From assembly GCF_003148625.1 (NCBI RefSeq), contig NZ_QGGO01000022.1:1-64000 (forward strand): a stretch of 64,000 nt of DNA. The letters run 5' to 3'. Origin of the DNA: Arcicella aurantiaca. Lineage in GTDB: Bacteria > Bacteroidota > Bacteroidia > Cytophagales > Spirosomataceae. Below, in pieces: positions 25,191 through 49,518 of the stretch (the stretch's first letter is position 1; the number at the start of each line of letters is the position of its first letter). The notes beneath the pieces are model-generated. The model was given only the letters and a program-made list of their open reading frames with translations. It was not told the DNA's origin and did not search any database. A program made the translations under genes and the position numbers.

Positions 25191-25198
25191 TATCTTTG
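25191..25198 (+). promoter_or_regulatory. ridA-family gene promoter, -7 element
   Basis: TATCTTTG matches TAnnTTTG and lies 24 nt before the ATG of the RidA-like gene. The -33 region is poor. Confidence 0.5.
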
Positions 25199-25222
25199 TG
25201 GCTTAACCAAAAAATACAGAAA

Positions 25223-25603
25223 ATGTCAAGACAAAATATCCTTACAGGTTCACCTTGGGAAGACAAAATGGGCTATTGCCGTGCAGTACGTATCGGAAAT
25301 ATTATCGAAGTTTCGGGAACAGTTGCTATTGTTGATGGAGAAACAGTAAAAGCTGACGACGCTTTTGCTCAAACAAATAACATCATTGAACGTATCGCTA
25401 AGGTTTTGGAAGAAGCAGGAGCAAGTTTAAATGACGTAGTAAGAACTCGTATTTTCACAACTGATATTGCTCAATTTGATAATATCGCAAAAGCTCACGG
25501 AGCATTTTTCAAAGACATCAAACCTACAACAGGTATTTATGAAATCAGCAAATTGGTTTCTCCTGACTATTTGGTAGAAATTGAATTCACGGCAGTTGTT
25601 TAA
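25223..25603 (+). CDS. RidA family protein (YjgF/YER057c/UK114)
   Basis: 126-residue RidA-like protein, from ATG at 25223; an in-frame TTG upstream overlaps the promoter and is rejected. RidA proteins hydrolyse reactive enamine/imine intermediates, but many paralogues differ in substrate. Visible features: AVRIGNIIEVSGTVAI, the run DVVRTRIFTTDIAQF containing the conserved Arg, and LVSPDYLVEIEFTAV at the end. It is a single-gene unit followed by a conserved 67-nt element and a strong terminator. Confidence 0.9.
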   Translation: MSRQNILTGSPWEDKMGYCRAVRIGNIIEVSGTVAIVDGETVKADDAFAQTNNIIERIAKVLEEAGASLNDVVRTRIFTTDIAQFDNIAKAHGAFFKDIKPTTGIYEISKLVSPDYLVEIEFTAVV

Positions 25604-25612
25604 GCTATAAGT

Positions 25613-25645
25613 AGGGATTGGGGGTTGGGATTTAGGTGTTAGTAA
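25613..25645 (+). repeat. GGGGTTGGGATTTAGG family repeat
   Basis: Text-like G/T-rich sequence (GGGATTGGGGGTTGGGATTT). Its complement family (CTAAATCCCAAAACCTA) recurs at 46795, 48508, 51617, 55556 and inside prmC. Confidence 0.55.
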
Positions 25646-25648
25646 TAC

Positions 25649-25715
25649 CATAAACTTGATTATCAATCATTTATGAAACATCAAAGCAGCACTCTATTTT
25701 ATCTCATTACTTACT
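25649..25715 (+). ncRNA. conserved 67-nt 3'-element, copy A (after the RidA gene)
   Basis: A 67-nt sequence starting CATAAACTTGATTATCAAT and ending CTCATTACTTACT recurs with the same length at 48314-48380 and, on the other strand, at 29065-29131. Each copy follows a gene on the same strand. Positions 1-6 and 22-27 can pair in all three copies, with T-G or G-T replacing A-T pairs. Whether it acts as RNA, as a protein-binding site or as a mobile repeat is unknown. Confidence 0.5.
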
Positions 25716-25783: not shown

Positions 25784-25849
25784 GTTAAAACGCTAAATGT
25801 TTACAAAAAGTTTTACGTTTGAAAAATAGTGAAATAGTTTTTCATTTTT
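25784..25849 (+). repeat. 66-bp direct repeat, left copy
   Basis: This stretch closely matches 26351-26415, on the other side of the small gene at 25936. Both contain AAAAAGTTTTA, then TTGAAAAATAGT and TTTTTCATTTTT. The core TGAAAAA...TTTTTCA can form a hairpin. Confidence 0.7.
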
Positions 25850-25934
25850 GTAACACAGACTTCAGTCTGTAAGTATATTTGTGTTACAGACTGAAGTTTG
25901 TGTTACAATTTTTACAGACTAAAGTCTGTGCTAC
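25850..25934. repeat. ACAGACT(N)AAGTCTGT palindrome cluster
   Basis: Three related palindromes (near 25854-25871, 25885-25902 and 25914-25929) carry words such as CACAGACTTCAGTCTGTAA and ACAGACTAAAGTCTGT. The last ends 6 nt before the ATG at 25936, where a ribosome-binding site would lie. With the direct repeat, terminator and 67-nt element, this accounts for the 332-bp gap 25604-25935. Confidence 0.75.
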
Positions 25935-25935
25935 T

Positions 25936-26247
25936 ATGAAGCAACAAACAATATATGAAGTAGCCGTAATTCCGATTGGCTCATTAAATTCTATCCGACA
26001 AAAAGAAACCGTTTTGAGTTATTTCTCAAACCTCAGCAAGTGCCTCGACCAAGTTTCAACGGCTTTGGCAATTAATGGCTGGGACTCTAAAATAAATTAT
26101 ACGGCAGTTTACAGAAGTTTGAAGGAAAAGGAAAAATACGTAGCCGAATTCAATTTAGCAGGGAATAAAATTTTCAAAATTGTGATAACGTGTAGAACGA
26201 TAAACCCTGCATTGACGATGTTAGGAATTGAAGAAAAACCTGTGTAA
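25936..26247 (+). CDS. small hypothetical protein
   Basis: 103 residues from ATG at 25936 (MKQQTIYEVAVIPIGSLNSI). Extension upstream would run through the palindrome cluster and is rejected. No signal peptide or membrane segment; the C-terminal half reads like alternating strands (KYVAEFNLAGNKIFKIVITC). The family is not recognised. The gene is flanked by a 66-bp direct repeat and has its own terminator. Its start codon follows a palindrome with no room for a normal ribosome-binding site. Confidence 0.6.
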   Translation: MKQQTIYEVAVIPIGSLNSIRQKETVLSYFSNLSKCLDQVSTALAINGWDSKINYTAVYRSLKEKEKYVAEFNLAGNKIFKIVITCRTINPALTMLGIEEKPV

Positions 26248-27626: not shown

Positions 27627-29069
27627 ATGCAAAAAGAGCTAATTGGTCGAGAAAAAGAGAAAGAAATACTTTTAAAAGTTTTAGAAACTCCCGAAGCAGA
27701 ATTGGTGGCTGTTGTGGGCAGACGGCGAGTAGGAAAAACATTTTTGGTGCGTTCCGTTTATGATTCATTAATTCGATTTGAAATAACGGGTCTGCAAAAT
27801 GTGACTGCCAAAAAGCAATTAAATAATTTCTCAATCCATCTTCGCAATGCCTTCGGAGCAATTGCCCCAAAAGAAAAACCGATTGATTGGCTTGAAGCAT
27901 TCCAACAGTTGATTGAATGTTGGGAAAAAACGGTAAACCCTTCAACAAAGTCGGTCATTTTCTTAGATGAATTACCTTGGTTAGCAGGACGAAAATCGGG
28001 CTTTTTGGATGGACTGAGTTATTTTTGGAATTCTTGGGCAGTAAAAAACAATGTTATTATTATCATTTGTGGTTCGGCTGCTTCATGGATGATTCAACAA
28101 GTGGTTTACAACAAAGGTGGCTTACACAATAGAATTACCCGAAGAATTCATCTGATGCCATTCAATTTGTATGAAACAGATTTATTCCTCAAGAATAAAA
28201 ACATTTTTTTAGATAAATATCAGATTGTGCAATTATACATGGCAATGGGTGGTATTCCTCATTATTTGAAAGAAGTAGAGGCTGGAAAAAGTGCTATTCA
28301 AAATATAGAACAAATTTGTTTTTCGAGTACGGGTTTGCTCAATGATGAGTTTATGAAATTGTACCCAGCTTTGTTTGAAAACGCCACACACCATATTAGT
28401 ATTATTAACGCTTTGGGGCATAAATGGAAAGGTTTGACAAGGCAAGAAATCATTAAGGAAACCTATTTATCAGATGGTGGAAATCTAAGTCGTTACTTGG
28501 ATGAATTACTTTATTCTGGTTTTATTTCTGCTTATAATGCTTTCGGAAAGAAGCAAAAAGATGCCTTATACCGTCTTACAGATGAATATTCGTTGTTTTA
28601 TCTTCATTTTATTCAACATCAAAATCAATTCACAAAAGATAGCTGGCAAAATTTGAGTCAAACATTCATGTTTAAGAGTTGGACAGGTTATGCTTTTGAA
28701 AATTTATGTCTGAAACATATCGACCAAATAAAAAAAGCATTGGGCATTTCAGGAATTTATTCAGAAACGAGCAGTTATTATCACAAAGGAACGTCAGAAC
28801 AACAGGGTGTACAAATTGATTTATTGATAGACCGAAAAGATAATGTCATCAATTTATTTGAACTGAAATTTTATGCCGAACCATTTATTTTAACTAAAAA
28901 ATATGCCGACATTTTGCGTGAAAAAGTCGGCACATTTAAACAATTGACGGGTACTCGTAAACAGATTTTTTTGAGTTTACTCAGTATTTATGGCTCAAAA
29001 CCCAATGAAAACAGCATCGGGCTAATCAATAATTCTTTGGAAGTTGATGTTTTATTTGAAAATCAATAA
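27627..29069 (+). CDS. AAA ATPase with C-terminal nuclease-like domain (DUF234-type)
   Basis: 480 residues. Walker A GRRRVGKT at 31-38, Walker B with Asp114-Glu115 (SVIFLDELPWLAG), then a winged-helix-like region at about 270-330 and a C-terminal domain with the PD-(D/E)xK-like pattern Asp398 (QIDLLID) and Glu412-Leu-Lys414 (FELKF). Proteins of this type are frequent, scattered and of unknown function; the nuclease fold is inferred from the motif. The last codons overlap the end of the conserved 67-nt element that lies on the opposite strand. Confidence 0.85.
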   Translation: MQKELIGREKEKEILLKVLETPEAELVAVVGRRRVGKTFLVRSVYDSLIRFEITGLQNVTAKKQLNNFSIHLRNAFGAIAPKEKPIDWLEAFQQLIECWEKTVNPSTKSVIFLDELPWLAGRKSGFLDGLSYFWNSWAVKNNVIIIICGSAASWMIQQVVYNKGGLHNRITRRIHLMPFNLYETDLFLKNKNIFLDKYQIVQLYMAMGGIPHYLKEVEAGKSAIQNIEQICFSSTGLLNDEFMKLYPALFENATHHISIINALGHKWKGLTRQEIIKETYLSDGGNLSRYLDELLYSGFISAYNAFGKKQKDALYRLTDEYSLFYLHFIQHQNQFTKDSWQNLSQTFMFKSWTGYAFENLCLKHIDQIKKALGISGIYSETSSYYHKGTSEQQGVQIDLLIDRKDNVINLFELKFYAEPFILTKKYADILREKVGTFKQLTGTRKQIFLSLLSIYGSKPNENSIGLINNSLEVDVLFENQ

Positions 29070-29165
29070 GTAATGGGACAAAATAAAGCACTATTTTGAG
29101 ATTTCATAAATAATTGATAATCAGACTTATGACAATCGTAAATTCTTAAATCGTCCTTCTACTTA
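29065..29165 (-). ncRNA. conserved 3'-element, copy C (after moaA), long form
   Basis: The 67-nt core occupies 29065-29131 on the minus strand. A 5' extension (AGGACGATTTAAGAA then TTACGATTGTC) reaches 29165, just after the moaA stop codon. The same extension is found before copy B, interrupted there by 22 nt. In copy C the core also overlaps the stop codon of the convergent ATPase gene. Confidence 0.5.
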
Positions 29166-29166
29166 A

Positions 29167-30171
29167 TTACCCACCAATTGTAGTCATGGATTCTGTAATG
29201 ACAGATTTACGATTGCGTTCGGCTTCAAAACCATCTTTTGGACGATTTTTGAAGGCTTGTAAAAAGGTCGATTTCAAGTCTTCATTCGTAATGCCGTCTC
29301 GTAATAAATCTCTAATATTCAGTACGCCTTCATCGTACAAACAAGTTTTTAAATCGCCCGTTGCTGTGAGGCGGATACGGTTACAAGTTCCACAAAATGT
29401 ACGAGAAAAGGCAGCAATTACACCAATATTTCCTTGAAAATCAGGAACTTGATAATTATAAGAAGTTGAATTTGGAGAATCTACAAGTTTTTGCAAATCA
29501 GGATATTGACTTTTTATTTCGGCTAAAATACGATGTAAATTCCACGCTAATTTTGGATAATGATTGCCTTCTCCGTTGAAAGGCATTTCTTCAATAAAAC
29601 GAATGGAAACGTTATGATTTTGCGTTAATCCGACCAAAGGCAAAATGTCTTCGGTATTTTTTCCGTCCATAACAACGGCATTTACTTTTACCTCAAAACC
29701 TGCATCAATTAACTGAAAAAGTGTATCGTAAACTTTATCAAATTCATCTCGACGAGTGATTTCAAAAAAGCGTTTTTTGTCTAAGGTATCTAAACTTAAA
29801 TTAACAGCACGCACGCCCATTTCTTTCATTTGGCGAATATATTGCCCCGTCAAAATTCCGTTAGTGGTAATATTGAGTTCGTCAATTCCATTGATTTCAG
29901 ATAATTGATACATGAAATCAATCATATTATGCCGAACAAATGGTTCTCCACCTGTAATTCTCACTTTTGAAATTCCCAACTCAGAAAGCACCGAAACCGT
30001 CCGAATCATTTCTTCGTAAGTCAATAACTTAGATTTGTGCAGATATTTTACGCCTTCTTCGGGCATACAATAAAAACAACGCAAATTACAACGGTCAGTT
30101 ACCGCCAAACGTAAGTAGGTTATCGGGCGACCATGATTGTCGTAAATGATATTTTGAGTTTGAGTATTCAA
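29167..30171 (-). CDS. moaA: GTP 3',8-cyclase MoaA
   Basis: Radical-SAM enzyme for the first step of molybdenum cofactor synthesis. It has 334 residues with the SAM cluster CNLRCFYC (Cys28, Cys32, Cys35), ITGGEPFVR, the second cluster FCGTCNRIRL plus a later Cys in LKTCLYDE, and the required Gly-Gly C-terminus. The only in-frame start is TTG at 30171; a TGA stop lies three codons upstream and there is no Met before the SAM motif. Divergent from moaD; no moaB, moaC, moaE or moeA in this window. Confidence 0.96.
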   Translation of the reverse strand: MNTQTQNIIYDNHGRPITYLRLAVTDRCNLRCFYCMPEEGVKYLHKSKLLTYEEMIRTVSVLSELGISKVRITGGEPFVRHNMIDFMYQLSEINGIDELNITTNGILTGQYIRQMKEMGVRAVNLSLDTLDKKRFFEITRRDEFDKVYDTLFQLIDAGFEVKVNAVVMDGKNTEDILPLVGLTQNHNVSIRFIEEMPFNGEGNHYPKLAWNLHRILAEIKSQYPDLQKLVDSPNSTSYNYQVPDFQGNIGVIAAFSRTFCGTCNRIRLTATGDLKTCLYDEGVLNIRDLLRDGITNEDLKSTFLQAFKNRPKDGFEAERNRKSVITESMTTIGG

Positions 30172-47127: not shown

Positions 47128-48153
47128 ATGACAGAAATACCAGCATTTAAAAAGAATCTCCCCACCCAAATTGCAGTATTGGGTGGTGGTAGTTGGGCTA
47201 CGGCAATCATTAAGATTTTAACCGAAAATAACGTAAAAATCAAATGGTGGTTACGCCGTAAATCTGACGTAGATTTTATCAAAAAATACAACCACAATCC
47301 GTCATATTTGACAGATGCTCCACTAAATCCACGTAAAGTAAAAGCATATTATAAAATGTACGATGCCCTTCAAGGGGTTGACTATGTGATATTGGCTGTA
47401 CCTGCGGCGTTTATTCCCGATGCCTTGAAAAACTTAACTCGCAATCATTTTGCGGGTAAAAAAGTTGTTTCGGCAATTAAAGGGATGATTCCCGAAGAAA
47501 ATATGCTGGTGACCGACTGGATGGAAAAAGTCTTTGGCGTACCCATTACGCAAATGTGCGTGATAGCAGGACCTTGCCATGCAGAAGAGGTTGCACAAGA
47601 AAAACAATCGTATTTGACTATTGGCTCGCCTAATATTCAATTGGCTCAGGAATTTTCAAACTTGATGACTTGCCGATACATTCAGGCAAATCCTGTGGCA
47701 GATTTATACGGTGTTGAATACTGTGCGGTTATTAAAAATATTGTGGCTATGGCTTGTGGAATTACGCACGGACTGGGTTTTGGAGACAATTTCCAAGCCG
47801 TGATGGTTTCTAATGCGATGCAGGAAATCAAACGTTTTTTAGACATTGTTTATCCACAAGTAAATAGAGATTTACACAGTTCTGGCTATTTGGGTGACTT
47901 ATTGGTAACGGCTTATTCGCAATTTTCAAGAAACCGAACTTTCGGAAATATGATTGGTCGGGGGTATTCGGTAAAGTCGGCACAAATAGAAATGAACATG
48001 GTTGCCGAAGGATATTACGCTGTGAAAAGTATTTATAAAATCAATGAACAGCATGATGTAGAAATGCCTATTATTGATTCGGTTTATAGAATTCTTTATG
48101 AAAAAGCTAATCCAATGGCTGAAATTGGCGTTTTGAAAGGATTTTTAAAATAG
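47128..48153 (+). CDS. gpsA: glycerol-3-phosphate dehydrogenase (NAD(P)+)
   Basis: Makes sn-glycerol 3-phosphate from dihydroxyacetone phosphate for phospholipid synthesis. 341 residues. Nucleotide-binding loop GGGSWATA at 19-26, VISAIKGM-type motif (VVSAIKGMIPEE), YCAVIKNIVAMACGI with the catalytic Lys, and a DLLVTAYSQFSRNRTFG segment that matches the family block around GDLxxTC. The first glycine of the usual GAG motif is kept and the second position is Gly rather than Ala. Confidence 0.96.
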   Translation: MTEIPAFKKNLPTQIAVLGGGSWATAIIKILTENNVKIKWWLRRKSDVDFIKKYNHNPSYLTDAPLNPRKVKAYYKMYDALQGVDYVILAVPAAFIPDALKNLTRNHFAGKKVVSAIKGMIPEENMLVTDWMEKVFGVPITQMCVIAGPCHAEEVAQEKQSYLTIGSPNIQLAQEFSNLMTCRYIQANPVADLYGVEYCAVIKNIVAMACGITHGLGFGDNFQAVMVSNAMQEIKRFLDIVYPQVNRDLHSSGYLGDLLVTAYSQFSRNRTFGNMIGRGYSVKSAQIEMNMVAEGYYAVKSIYKINEQHDVEMPIIDSVYRILYEKANPMAEIGVLKGFLK

Positions 48154-48257: not shown

Positions 48258-48380
48258 TAAGTACAAGGACGATTTAAGAACGGTTCGCCGTAGCGATTAC
48301 GATTTACGATTATCATAAACTTGATTATCAATGGTTTGTGAGATTTTAAAATGTTGTTTTATTTTGTCTCATTACTTACT
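48258..48380 (+). ncRNA. conserved 3'-element, copy B (after gpsA), long form
   Basis: The 67-nt core is 48314-48380. A 5' extension (TAAGTACAAGGACGATTTAA at 48258, then TTTACGATTAT at 48303) matches copy C except for 22 extra nt (48281-48302). The stem CATAAA / TTTGTG keeps pairing through a T-G pair. The gene before it on this strand is gpsA. Confidence 0.5.
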
Positions 48381-48422: not shown

Positions 48423-48441
48423 GATTTTAGGAATTATTAGG

Positions 48442-48483
48442 GACTGATGCAAAATTAAAATGTATTTTAATTTTGCATCAGTC
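48442..48483. terminator. perfect 19-bp hairpin
   Basis: GACTGATGCAAAATTAAAA pairs without mismatch with 48465-48483 across a TGTA loop. It sits between convergent gpsA and the DUF4382 gene, 58 nt from the stop of the latter. With the conserved element, the other hairpin and the repeat at 48508 it accounts for the gap 48154-48540. Confidence 0.8.
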
Positions 48484-48507
48484 ATTGATAACTAAGCTCA
48501 TGAAAAT

Positions 48508-48540
48508 ACTAAATCCTAACACCTAAATCCCAAAACCTAC
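48508..48540. repeat. AAATCCTAACACCTAAATCC fragment
   Basis: Complement-type words of the GGGATTTAGG family, adjoining the stop codon of the DUF4382 gene. A TTAGTTATTGGTGATTAG fragment of the other text family lies near 48170-48190. Confidence 0.5.
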
Positions 48541-49518
48541 TTACAAAGATAAAAAGCCTAAAATGGTTACGTTCAGCGTTACAGACGCATTAGCTTTTAC
48601 TGAAACGCTATTCAAACTAATTAAGCTATTAATATTAGCCATACTTTGTAAAGAGAATTGACCGCTTCCCGAATTTTTGTAATTGGCAAATTGAAGTTCG
48701 TAGTCGCCTTCTTCCAAAAATGCTAAATTATAATTCCCATTTCCGTCGGCTACGCAACTGGTTACAGCATTTTTAAATTGTACGTTTCCACTGCCTTGTC
48801 CTTTCGTTTCCGAAGATGAATAAGTCCCTTTTTTGTAAGCGTAAACAATCAACTTACTGTTGGTTTCTTTGTAATTGGCACAAGTTCCTTTAATTGCCCC
48901 AGCTTGTGCTTTTACCAACACACGAGTAGAAGCGTTTAAGTCGCCAGAACTCACAAAGCGATAGCCTCCCGAAGCACTTCCATTTTCATCCATTACGGCT
49001 TTCCGAATGTCAAAATCAAGTACCAAATTGGTTTGCTGATTTTCTTTTACTTCAAAAGCTTTTGAGCTTACTACTTCCGTTTGTCCCGTCACTGAACCTG
49101 TCAAATTATACTTGGTGTTATCAGTAGCCAAAGCATAACAACCCGGAGCATTTCCGTTTTGGTCGGTAGCATTATCCAAAATCAAGGAAATATTATTGTA
49201 TGAACCTGTTTTGATATTTCCCAAACCTAAAGCTGCCACATTTCCATTTTGATACGCCGATAATTCAATTGTTTTCTTACCGCTAAATCCACTAAATTTC
49301 TTACCGTCAATTCTTACTTCTGTTACCGTTACAAATGTACCTTTTAAGTTTGCATCGTCAGAAGGAGCATCTGTGATTTCTACATTTACCGACCCTTGTA
49401 CGCCCGTTGTTGTGTCGTCAGGACTTACAGAATCTTCTGTTTTTTTGCAAGATTGTGTTACGAAGGTTGCCATCAAAATGGTCATTACAGCCAAGAAGCT
49501 TTTCTTTAATTTAATCAT
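48541..49518 (-). CDS. DUF4382 lipoprotein
   Basis: 325 residues with a lipoprotein signal (LMATFVTQSC, Cys24). The domain at about 43-190 (GSVNVEITDAPSDDANLKGT, VTVTEVRIDGKKFSG) matches DUF4382 as I know it. The C-terminal part (about 205-325) looks like a carboxypeptidase-like beta-sandwich that would bind or present at the surface (GNGNYNLAFLEEGDYELQF). Function unknown. Last gene of a minus-strand group of envelope proteins. Confidence 0.85.
   Translation of the reverse strand: MIKLKKSFLAVMTILMATFVTQSCKKTEDSVSPDDTTTGVQGSVNVEITDAPSDDANLKGTFVTVTEVRIDGKKFSGFSGKKTIELSAYQNGNVAALGLGNIKTGSYNNISLILDNATDQNGNAPGCYALATDNTKYNLTGSVTGQTEVVSSKAFEVKENQQTNLVLDFDIRKAVMDENGSASGGYRFVSSGDLNASTRVLVKAQAGAIKGTCANYKETNSKLIVYAYKKGTYSSSETKGQGSGNVQFKNAVTSCVADGNGNYNLAFLEEGDYELQFANYKNSGSGQFSLQSMANINSLISLNSVSVKANASVTLNVTILGFLSL

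Follow-up and report, generated by a model that had tools for sequence, protein, structure and literature searches.

The conserved 67-nt element that recurs behind unrelated genes of Arcicella aurantiaca is part of a longer, dispersed repeat, which very probably represents a new IS630-dependent MITE family that is RUP-like and functionally resembles the RUP and Correia elements. The evidence favours a new family of a familiar type over a regulatory RNA; the recurring conserved 3' element would then be explained as mobile DNA, which argues against a regulatory-RNA annotation. Here, "the window" denotes the whole stretch of DNA that was analysed (64,000 nt, positions 1 to 64,000 of contig NZ_QGGO01000022.1), and fetched stretches and other genomes carry the labels L and G, respectively.

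Element copies in the window

The three 67-nt cores of the initial annotation are present at 25649-25715 (+), 29065-29131 (-) and 48314-48380 (+), with pairwise identities of 53, 51 and 53 of 67 positions and with 46 of the 67 positions invariant across all three. Their length was borne out, but 67 nt is not the unit of the repeat: the cores comprise the centre and right arm of a longer element, whose left start (TAAGTA) lies 34-56 nt beyond the core and whose right end (TACTTA) falls 2 nt short of the core's end. The additional 5' block that had been described as common to two copies exists as well, but it is arm A, a left arm that occurs in two forms; the RidA copy carries the other form, arm B (Table 1).

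All three copies had been placed after the stop codon of a gene on their own strand. Copies 1 and 2 do so immediately, starting 4 nt and 1 nt beyond the RidA-family and moaA stops, respectively; the gpsA copy lies about 100 nt downstream. The right-end TAA of copy 2 also forms the stop codon of the convergent gene at 27627-29069 (stop offset 0), and a degraded fourth copy, with its core at 48476-48502 (3 mismatches), has a TAA that is the stop codon of the gene at 48541-49518 (stop offset 0). Separate terminator-like hairpins could be read by eye downstream of two window copies, as had been reported, and one such hairpin comes after copy 1.

Table 1. Positions of the repeat copies and of the genes next to them in the window.
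Feature	Position	Strand	Description and basis
MITE copy 1	25608..25713	+	left arm B, right arm C; ends by motif, arm typing
MITE copy 2	29067..29165	-	left arm A, right arm C; 1 nt past moaA stop
MITE copy 3	48258..48378	+	long form of left arm A carrying a CGGTTCGCCG insert; arm C on the right; ~100 nt past gpsA
Degraded fourth copy	48436..48543	-	left arm B; right end not definable, lower coordinate approximate
Central hairpin motif CATAARC-TTGATTATCAA-TGGTTTRTG	48314..48340	+	core pattern, folds
RidA-family gene (Ribonuc_L-PSP)	25196..25603	+	Pfam PF01042, E=1.6e-26
moaA-like gene (radical SAM + Mob_synth_C)	29167..30171	-	Pfam
ATPase gene, stop coincides with right end of copy 2	27627..29069	+	Pfam PF01637
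gpsA (NAD-dependent glycerol-3-phosphate dehydrogenase)	47128..48153	+	Pfam
DUF4382 protein gene ending within fourth copy	48541..49518	-	Pfam PF14321

Copy number and anatomy

A search of the host genome (a 5.93-Mb draft in 70 contigs) with positions 48258-48380 as the query returned at least 43 matches (E ≤ 0.001), 40 of the 131 candidates having been scored, which puts the likeness of the copies far beyond chance. With ≤ 3 mismatches allowed, the degenerate core CATRARNYTGATTATCAATNRYTTRTG was found at 56 places in the genome, 29 forward and 27 reverse, and the reversed core pattern, used as a control in the same genome with the same tolerance, gave no match. Within stretches fetched from the genome, a tolerance of ≤ 4 mismatches yielded 59 cores, which occupy 58 places because a pair in L021 overlaps on opposite strands, and further, more degraded copies may be present.

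The element runs from TAAGTA to TACTTA, a terminal inverted repeat of about 6 nt. Outer ends were located by this motif itself and are exact at 45 of the 59 cores on the left (TAAGTA, TAAGCA or TAAATA) and at 28 on the right (TACTTA); among the 34 copies for which both ends could be defined, lengths range from 97 to 130 nt and are mostly 98-109 (about 105 bp). The centre consists of TTGATTATCAA between CATAARC and GGTTTATG, and is flanked by left arms of type A (TAAGTACAAGGACGATTTAAGAATTACGATTTACG...) or B (TAAGTAGGTGTTGGGATTTAGGTGTTAGGATTTAG...) and, usually, by right arm C, which reads TAAGTAATGAGACAAAATAAAAC... from its outer end inward. Arm typing of the 59 cores against shuffled thresholds gave 20 A-C, 11 B-C, 18 B with an untyped right arm, two B-B, one B-A, two A with an untyped right arm and five others. 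None of the 59 core centres lies within an ORF of ≥ 70 aa; the copies are short, dispersed and outside genes, as in a MITE. An autonomous copy with the element's own arms was sought beside five half copies (L022, L028, L033, L035 and L037) and rejected, as no transposase was recognised by eye in the following 300 nt.

Empty sites in related genomes

For 14 insertion sites (3 in the window and 11 elsewhere, with L024, L045 and L102 left out), we compared the neighbourhood with that in genomes of the same genus, using 1-6 relatives per site, and the element was absent from the relatives at 14 of 14. Scanning the relatives' stretches for the core (≤ 5 mismatches) gave a single match, L174 with 5 mismatches, which was taken as chance. 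Both flanks are conserved in at least one relative at seven sites (RidA, gpsA, L020, L025, L032, L043 and L093), and at the remaining sites only the upstream gene was comparable. Copy 2 is absent from relatives, in which the gene neighbouring moaA differs, and copy 3 is absent after gpsA in G003, G005, G006 and G007.

At the RidA site, joining the two flanks with a single TA gives a gap-free alignment to G005 of 122 nt, with 105 positions identical (86%); this join was the one aligned, the join without TA being judged by eye. At L093, the empty site in G005 is CATTTATAAAAA (CATTTA-TA-AAAA) and the filled site reads CATTTA-TA-[AGTAGG...TACT]-TA-AAAA. As far as aligned sequence can tell, both sites are consistent with a TA target that was duplicated, and the duplication is presumably general across sites; the L025 empty site in G005 (GAAGGA^CTAC) does not fit, as it has no TA, contrary to the model. 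Taken together, the family looks mobile.

A probable resident IS630 partner

IS630 elements have TA targets. The domain of IS630 transposases, DDE_3 (PF13358), was detected in seven of eight genomes of the genus, with only two matches in this genome. At six DDE_3 loci we searched for inverted repeats with a flanking TA as the only requirement, and this revealed perfect 18-nt repeats in L186, starting AGTAATTAAGC and with TA outside; the best pair in L187 was AGTAG... with 5 of 18 positions mismatched, and the other four loci had no such ends. L186:1392-2503 is an IS630-type element with the TIR TAAGTAATTAAGCAGAATTAAATT at both ends and a DDE_3 match at E = 8e-36, and its ends, found without asking for the motif, read TA-AGTA...TACT-TA, as in the repeat. 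The transposase in L186:1392-2503 is divided between two ORFs that overlap, which hints at frameshifted expression or at decay.

When 12 loci were asked for ends with ≤ 1 mismatch from TAAGTA, six had ≥ 18 of 26 end-to-end matches (four TAAGTA, two TAAGTG); this search favours the TAAGTA motif, so that the independent ends are those of L186 only and, weakly, L187. Over the 18 nt after TAAGTA, arm C matches the six IS630 ends at 10-12 of 18 positions (shuffle p 0.0002-0.03). Among the left arms, arm A resembles none of these ends and arm B one, which indicates a true terminal repeat of about 6 nt. The repeat thus has ends like those of a resident IS630 transposon (L186), with a similar right arm and largely dissimilar left arms, and we infer that an IS630 transposase moves it.

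Excess of copies at stop codons

The stop codon of the adjoining gene is the left-end TAA in 8 copies and the right-end TAA in 2, so that 10 of 59 cores end exactly on a TAA stop, two of them with an imperfect end (L024 and L030), compared with 3.97% expected (p = 1e-4), and 23 of 59 end ≤ 12 nt from a stop compared with 7.8% expected (p = 3e-11); the null was formed by the 4,730 TA sites that fall outside coding sequence in these stretches, of which these percentages lie in stop codons or within 12 nt of one, with an ORF cut-off of 70 codons for the observed counts and 80 aa for the null. At five of six exact-overlap sites that were followed in relatives (L017, L020, L039, L043 and L093), a relative has its stop at the same codon; at L019 the stop of G005 lies one codon earlier. 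Three of the five relatives compared at L020 use TGA, a codon without TA; the findings at L019 and L020 speak against the model. Stops at the same codon in relatives point to entry into existing stop codons rather than truncation, and the element seems mostly to enter such stops and rebuild them (TA-A) without truncating proteins. At these sites, whose stops are conserved in relatives, a stop codon appears to have been hit by a TA-targeting element and restored by it.

Of 45 copies, 10 have the trinucleotide AAG directly before the terminal TA, compared with 2.4% of non-coding TA sites (p = 9e-8), and seven of these ten lie away from stops. Lys-stop gene ends of the form AAG-TAA are ordinary.

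In the mechanism that we propose, the element would insert at TA and duplicate it, yielding copies of the form TA-AGTA...TACT-TA. Because the element begins with A, an in-frame TAA would be rebuilt whenever it inserted into the TA of a stop codon, be this TAA or TAG. Such an insertion would leave the protein unchanged; insertions inside genes would break them and be lost, selection presumably removing these other insertions. A preference for AAG-TA, which matches Lys-stop ends, combined with this harmlessness would place copies directly behind stops.

Orientation, RNA folding and alternative explanations

Another observation that stands against this mechanism is a strand-asymmetric RNA fold, which the IS630-MITE reading does not predict. 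Only one strand, the top one, folds end to end as RNA, and it is the more stable of the two in 32 of the 34 copies with both ends defined (mean -21.1 kcal/mol, compared with -12.8 for the bottom strand, p = 1.3e-6; L021 and L026 are exceptions). Arm-to-arm alignments contain 200 G.U-type and 70 A.C-type differences, although the copies are akin to one another and these counts are not independent. Folded as RNA, the window copies reach z-scores of -2.0, -2.4 and -1.4; folded as DNA, they reach -0.8, -1.0 and -0.2, no better than shuffles. These properties would suit a 3'-UTR RNA element, in which the top strand, once transcribed, would form a hairpin from end to end, serve to stabilise, process or terminate the mRNA, and be retained for this role. 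The same reading draws on orientation: of the cores that have a stop no more than about 60 nt away, 22 are sense and 6 antisense (p = 0.004; two copies counted in both). Part of this bias is explicable by the AAG preference, and around all 59 cores the neighbouring genes are arranged as +E+ in 22 cases, -E- in 18, convergent in 11 and divergent in 8, without overall strand bias. Random orientation, which the initial annotation had named as a refuting result, is thus found in part: it applies to co-directional neighbours as a whole (22 sense, 18 antisense) and not to the cores near stops. An RNA role retained by selection is nevertheless improbable in our assessment, given that the element is missing from relatives at all 14 sites compared and that two window copies are followed by terminator-like hairpins of their own. 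Applied to 18 A-C copies, RNAalifold predicted 28 pairs, 3 of them with double changes, and the main double change (columns 63-77) divides the copies into two groups, implying few independent events. The small stem that had been described exists, but its covariation is no higher than in shuffles: among 51 distinct cores, selected with a pattern in which several pairs are free to change, 13 two-sided changes compare with a shuffle mean of 12 (reached by 352 of 1000 column shuffles), and the percentage paired was reached by 218 of 1000. Compensatory change was accordingly rejected as proof of an RNA. A search of the window against Rfam gave no match at gathering scores. As for the asymmetry itself, antisense copies (L023, L025 and L030) also fold asymmetrically, so we attribute it to the founder sequences, whose G-rich left arms could have produced it; singleton counts, which bear on strand-biased deamination as a cause, are few (five C>T for 10 consensus C, two G>A for 13 consensus G). 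A conserved 3'-UTR RNA as the primary nature of the repeat, as the initial annotation had considered, finds no support: none of the 14 sites compared is shared with a relative, Rfam gave no match in the window and core covariation stays at shuffle level. Its guess of a small non-autonomous repeat agrees with the dispersed copies, the relatives' sites without the element, the TA target at two well-aligned sites and the IS630-like ends, and its interpretation as a whole is partly supported.

An intermediate possibility, which we regard as doubtful, is that the MITE uses stop codons as safe harbours and in addition supplies a sense-strand RNA hairpin to the 3' ends of host mRNAs. If this were true, the G.U-kept top-strand fold and the sense bias near stops would reflect selection on RNA, for example by keeping host transcripts stable so that insertions are tolerated; strand-asymmetric folding offers a connection, open to testing, between elements of this sort and the 3' ends of mRNAs. 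Very little credence can be given to a REP/BIME-type repeat mobilised by a RAYT (Y1 HUH) transposase. The element is palindromic, intergenic and dispersed, and the genome has seven Y1_Tnp matches, but when the flanks of these genes were searched a half element was found near just one of the seven (about 350 bp away, in C40) and the other six had only weak matches (best E = 0.009). The TA duplicated at two sites and the TA-AGTA ends shared with the resident IS630 also speak against it, as does the unit of about 105 bp, REPs being 20-40 bp according to the description in PMC3733652.

Distribution and relation to known elements

The family is narrow, being confined to this genome, G005 of the same genus (18 matches) and traces elsewhere. 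Among 200 genomes of the taxonomic family scanned with ≤ 2 mismatches, 10 had any match: 41 in this genome, 5 in G005, 2 in G006 and one each in seven others. An exact-pattern scan of a contig collection, from which records near this genome are possibly absent, returned 5 stretches. No description of this MITE family was found in the literature searched, which lay mostly outside subscription journals.

By description, the nearest counterpart is RUP, given in the consulted sections of PMC2229807 and PMC3049150 as about 107 bp, AT-rich and present in about 110 copies, with TA termini and TA-containing targets, and proposed to be moved by IS630-Spn1. The two are alike in size, AT-richness, TA termini and targets, and presumed IS630 partner; the repeat described here differs in its unrelated host phylum, two left arms, terminal repeat of about 6 nt and excess at stop codons. 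Correia/NEMIS elements, MITEs of about 107 and about 155 bp with TA termini and target duplications (PMC2229807, in part), are likewise similar by description, but their terminal repeats are 24-26 bp and their host is another. The BOX elements of S. pneumoniae are modular repeats that supply the gene stop codon in 36 cases, with no strong evidence of truncation in the part of PMC3049150 that treats them, and are thereby a precedent for the stop habit of our element; this similar pattern appears there without a stop-rebuilding explanation. BOX differs in its boxA-B-C modules and in some likeness to ISSpn2 ends, whereas the arms of the present element vary around a fixed centre and its ends are IS630-like. 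Within Bacteroidota, MITECca01 of Cardinium is lineage-restricted and thought to depend on a resident IS (PMC9769881, in part), a likeness in distribution and presumed partner; it measures about 240 bp and its parent belongs to the IS982 family.

Other repeats in the genome

Several other repeats were noticed. A hairpin repeat, TAGACTTCCTGCGAAAGTGTTTTA...TAAAACACTTTCGCAGGAAGTCTA, is located at L028, L033, L105 and L021, sometimes inside or beside element copies, and a GGGCGTATCGCATACGCCC-like palindromic repeat adjoins element copies at L015 and L106. Hairpin repeats of CCCGAAATTCATTTCGGGG occur at L039 and L012 and have many matches in the genome (query about 2107-2179). In the window, positions 25848-25936 hold another dispersed palindromic repeat (ACAGACTTCAGTCTG...CAGACTGAAG type), for which, among the matches listed, many are in this genome and others in G005.
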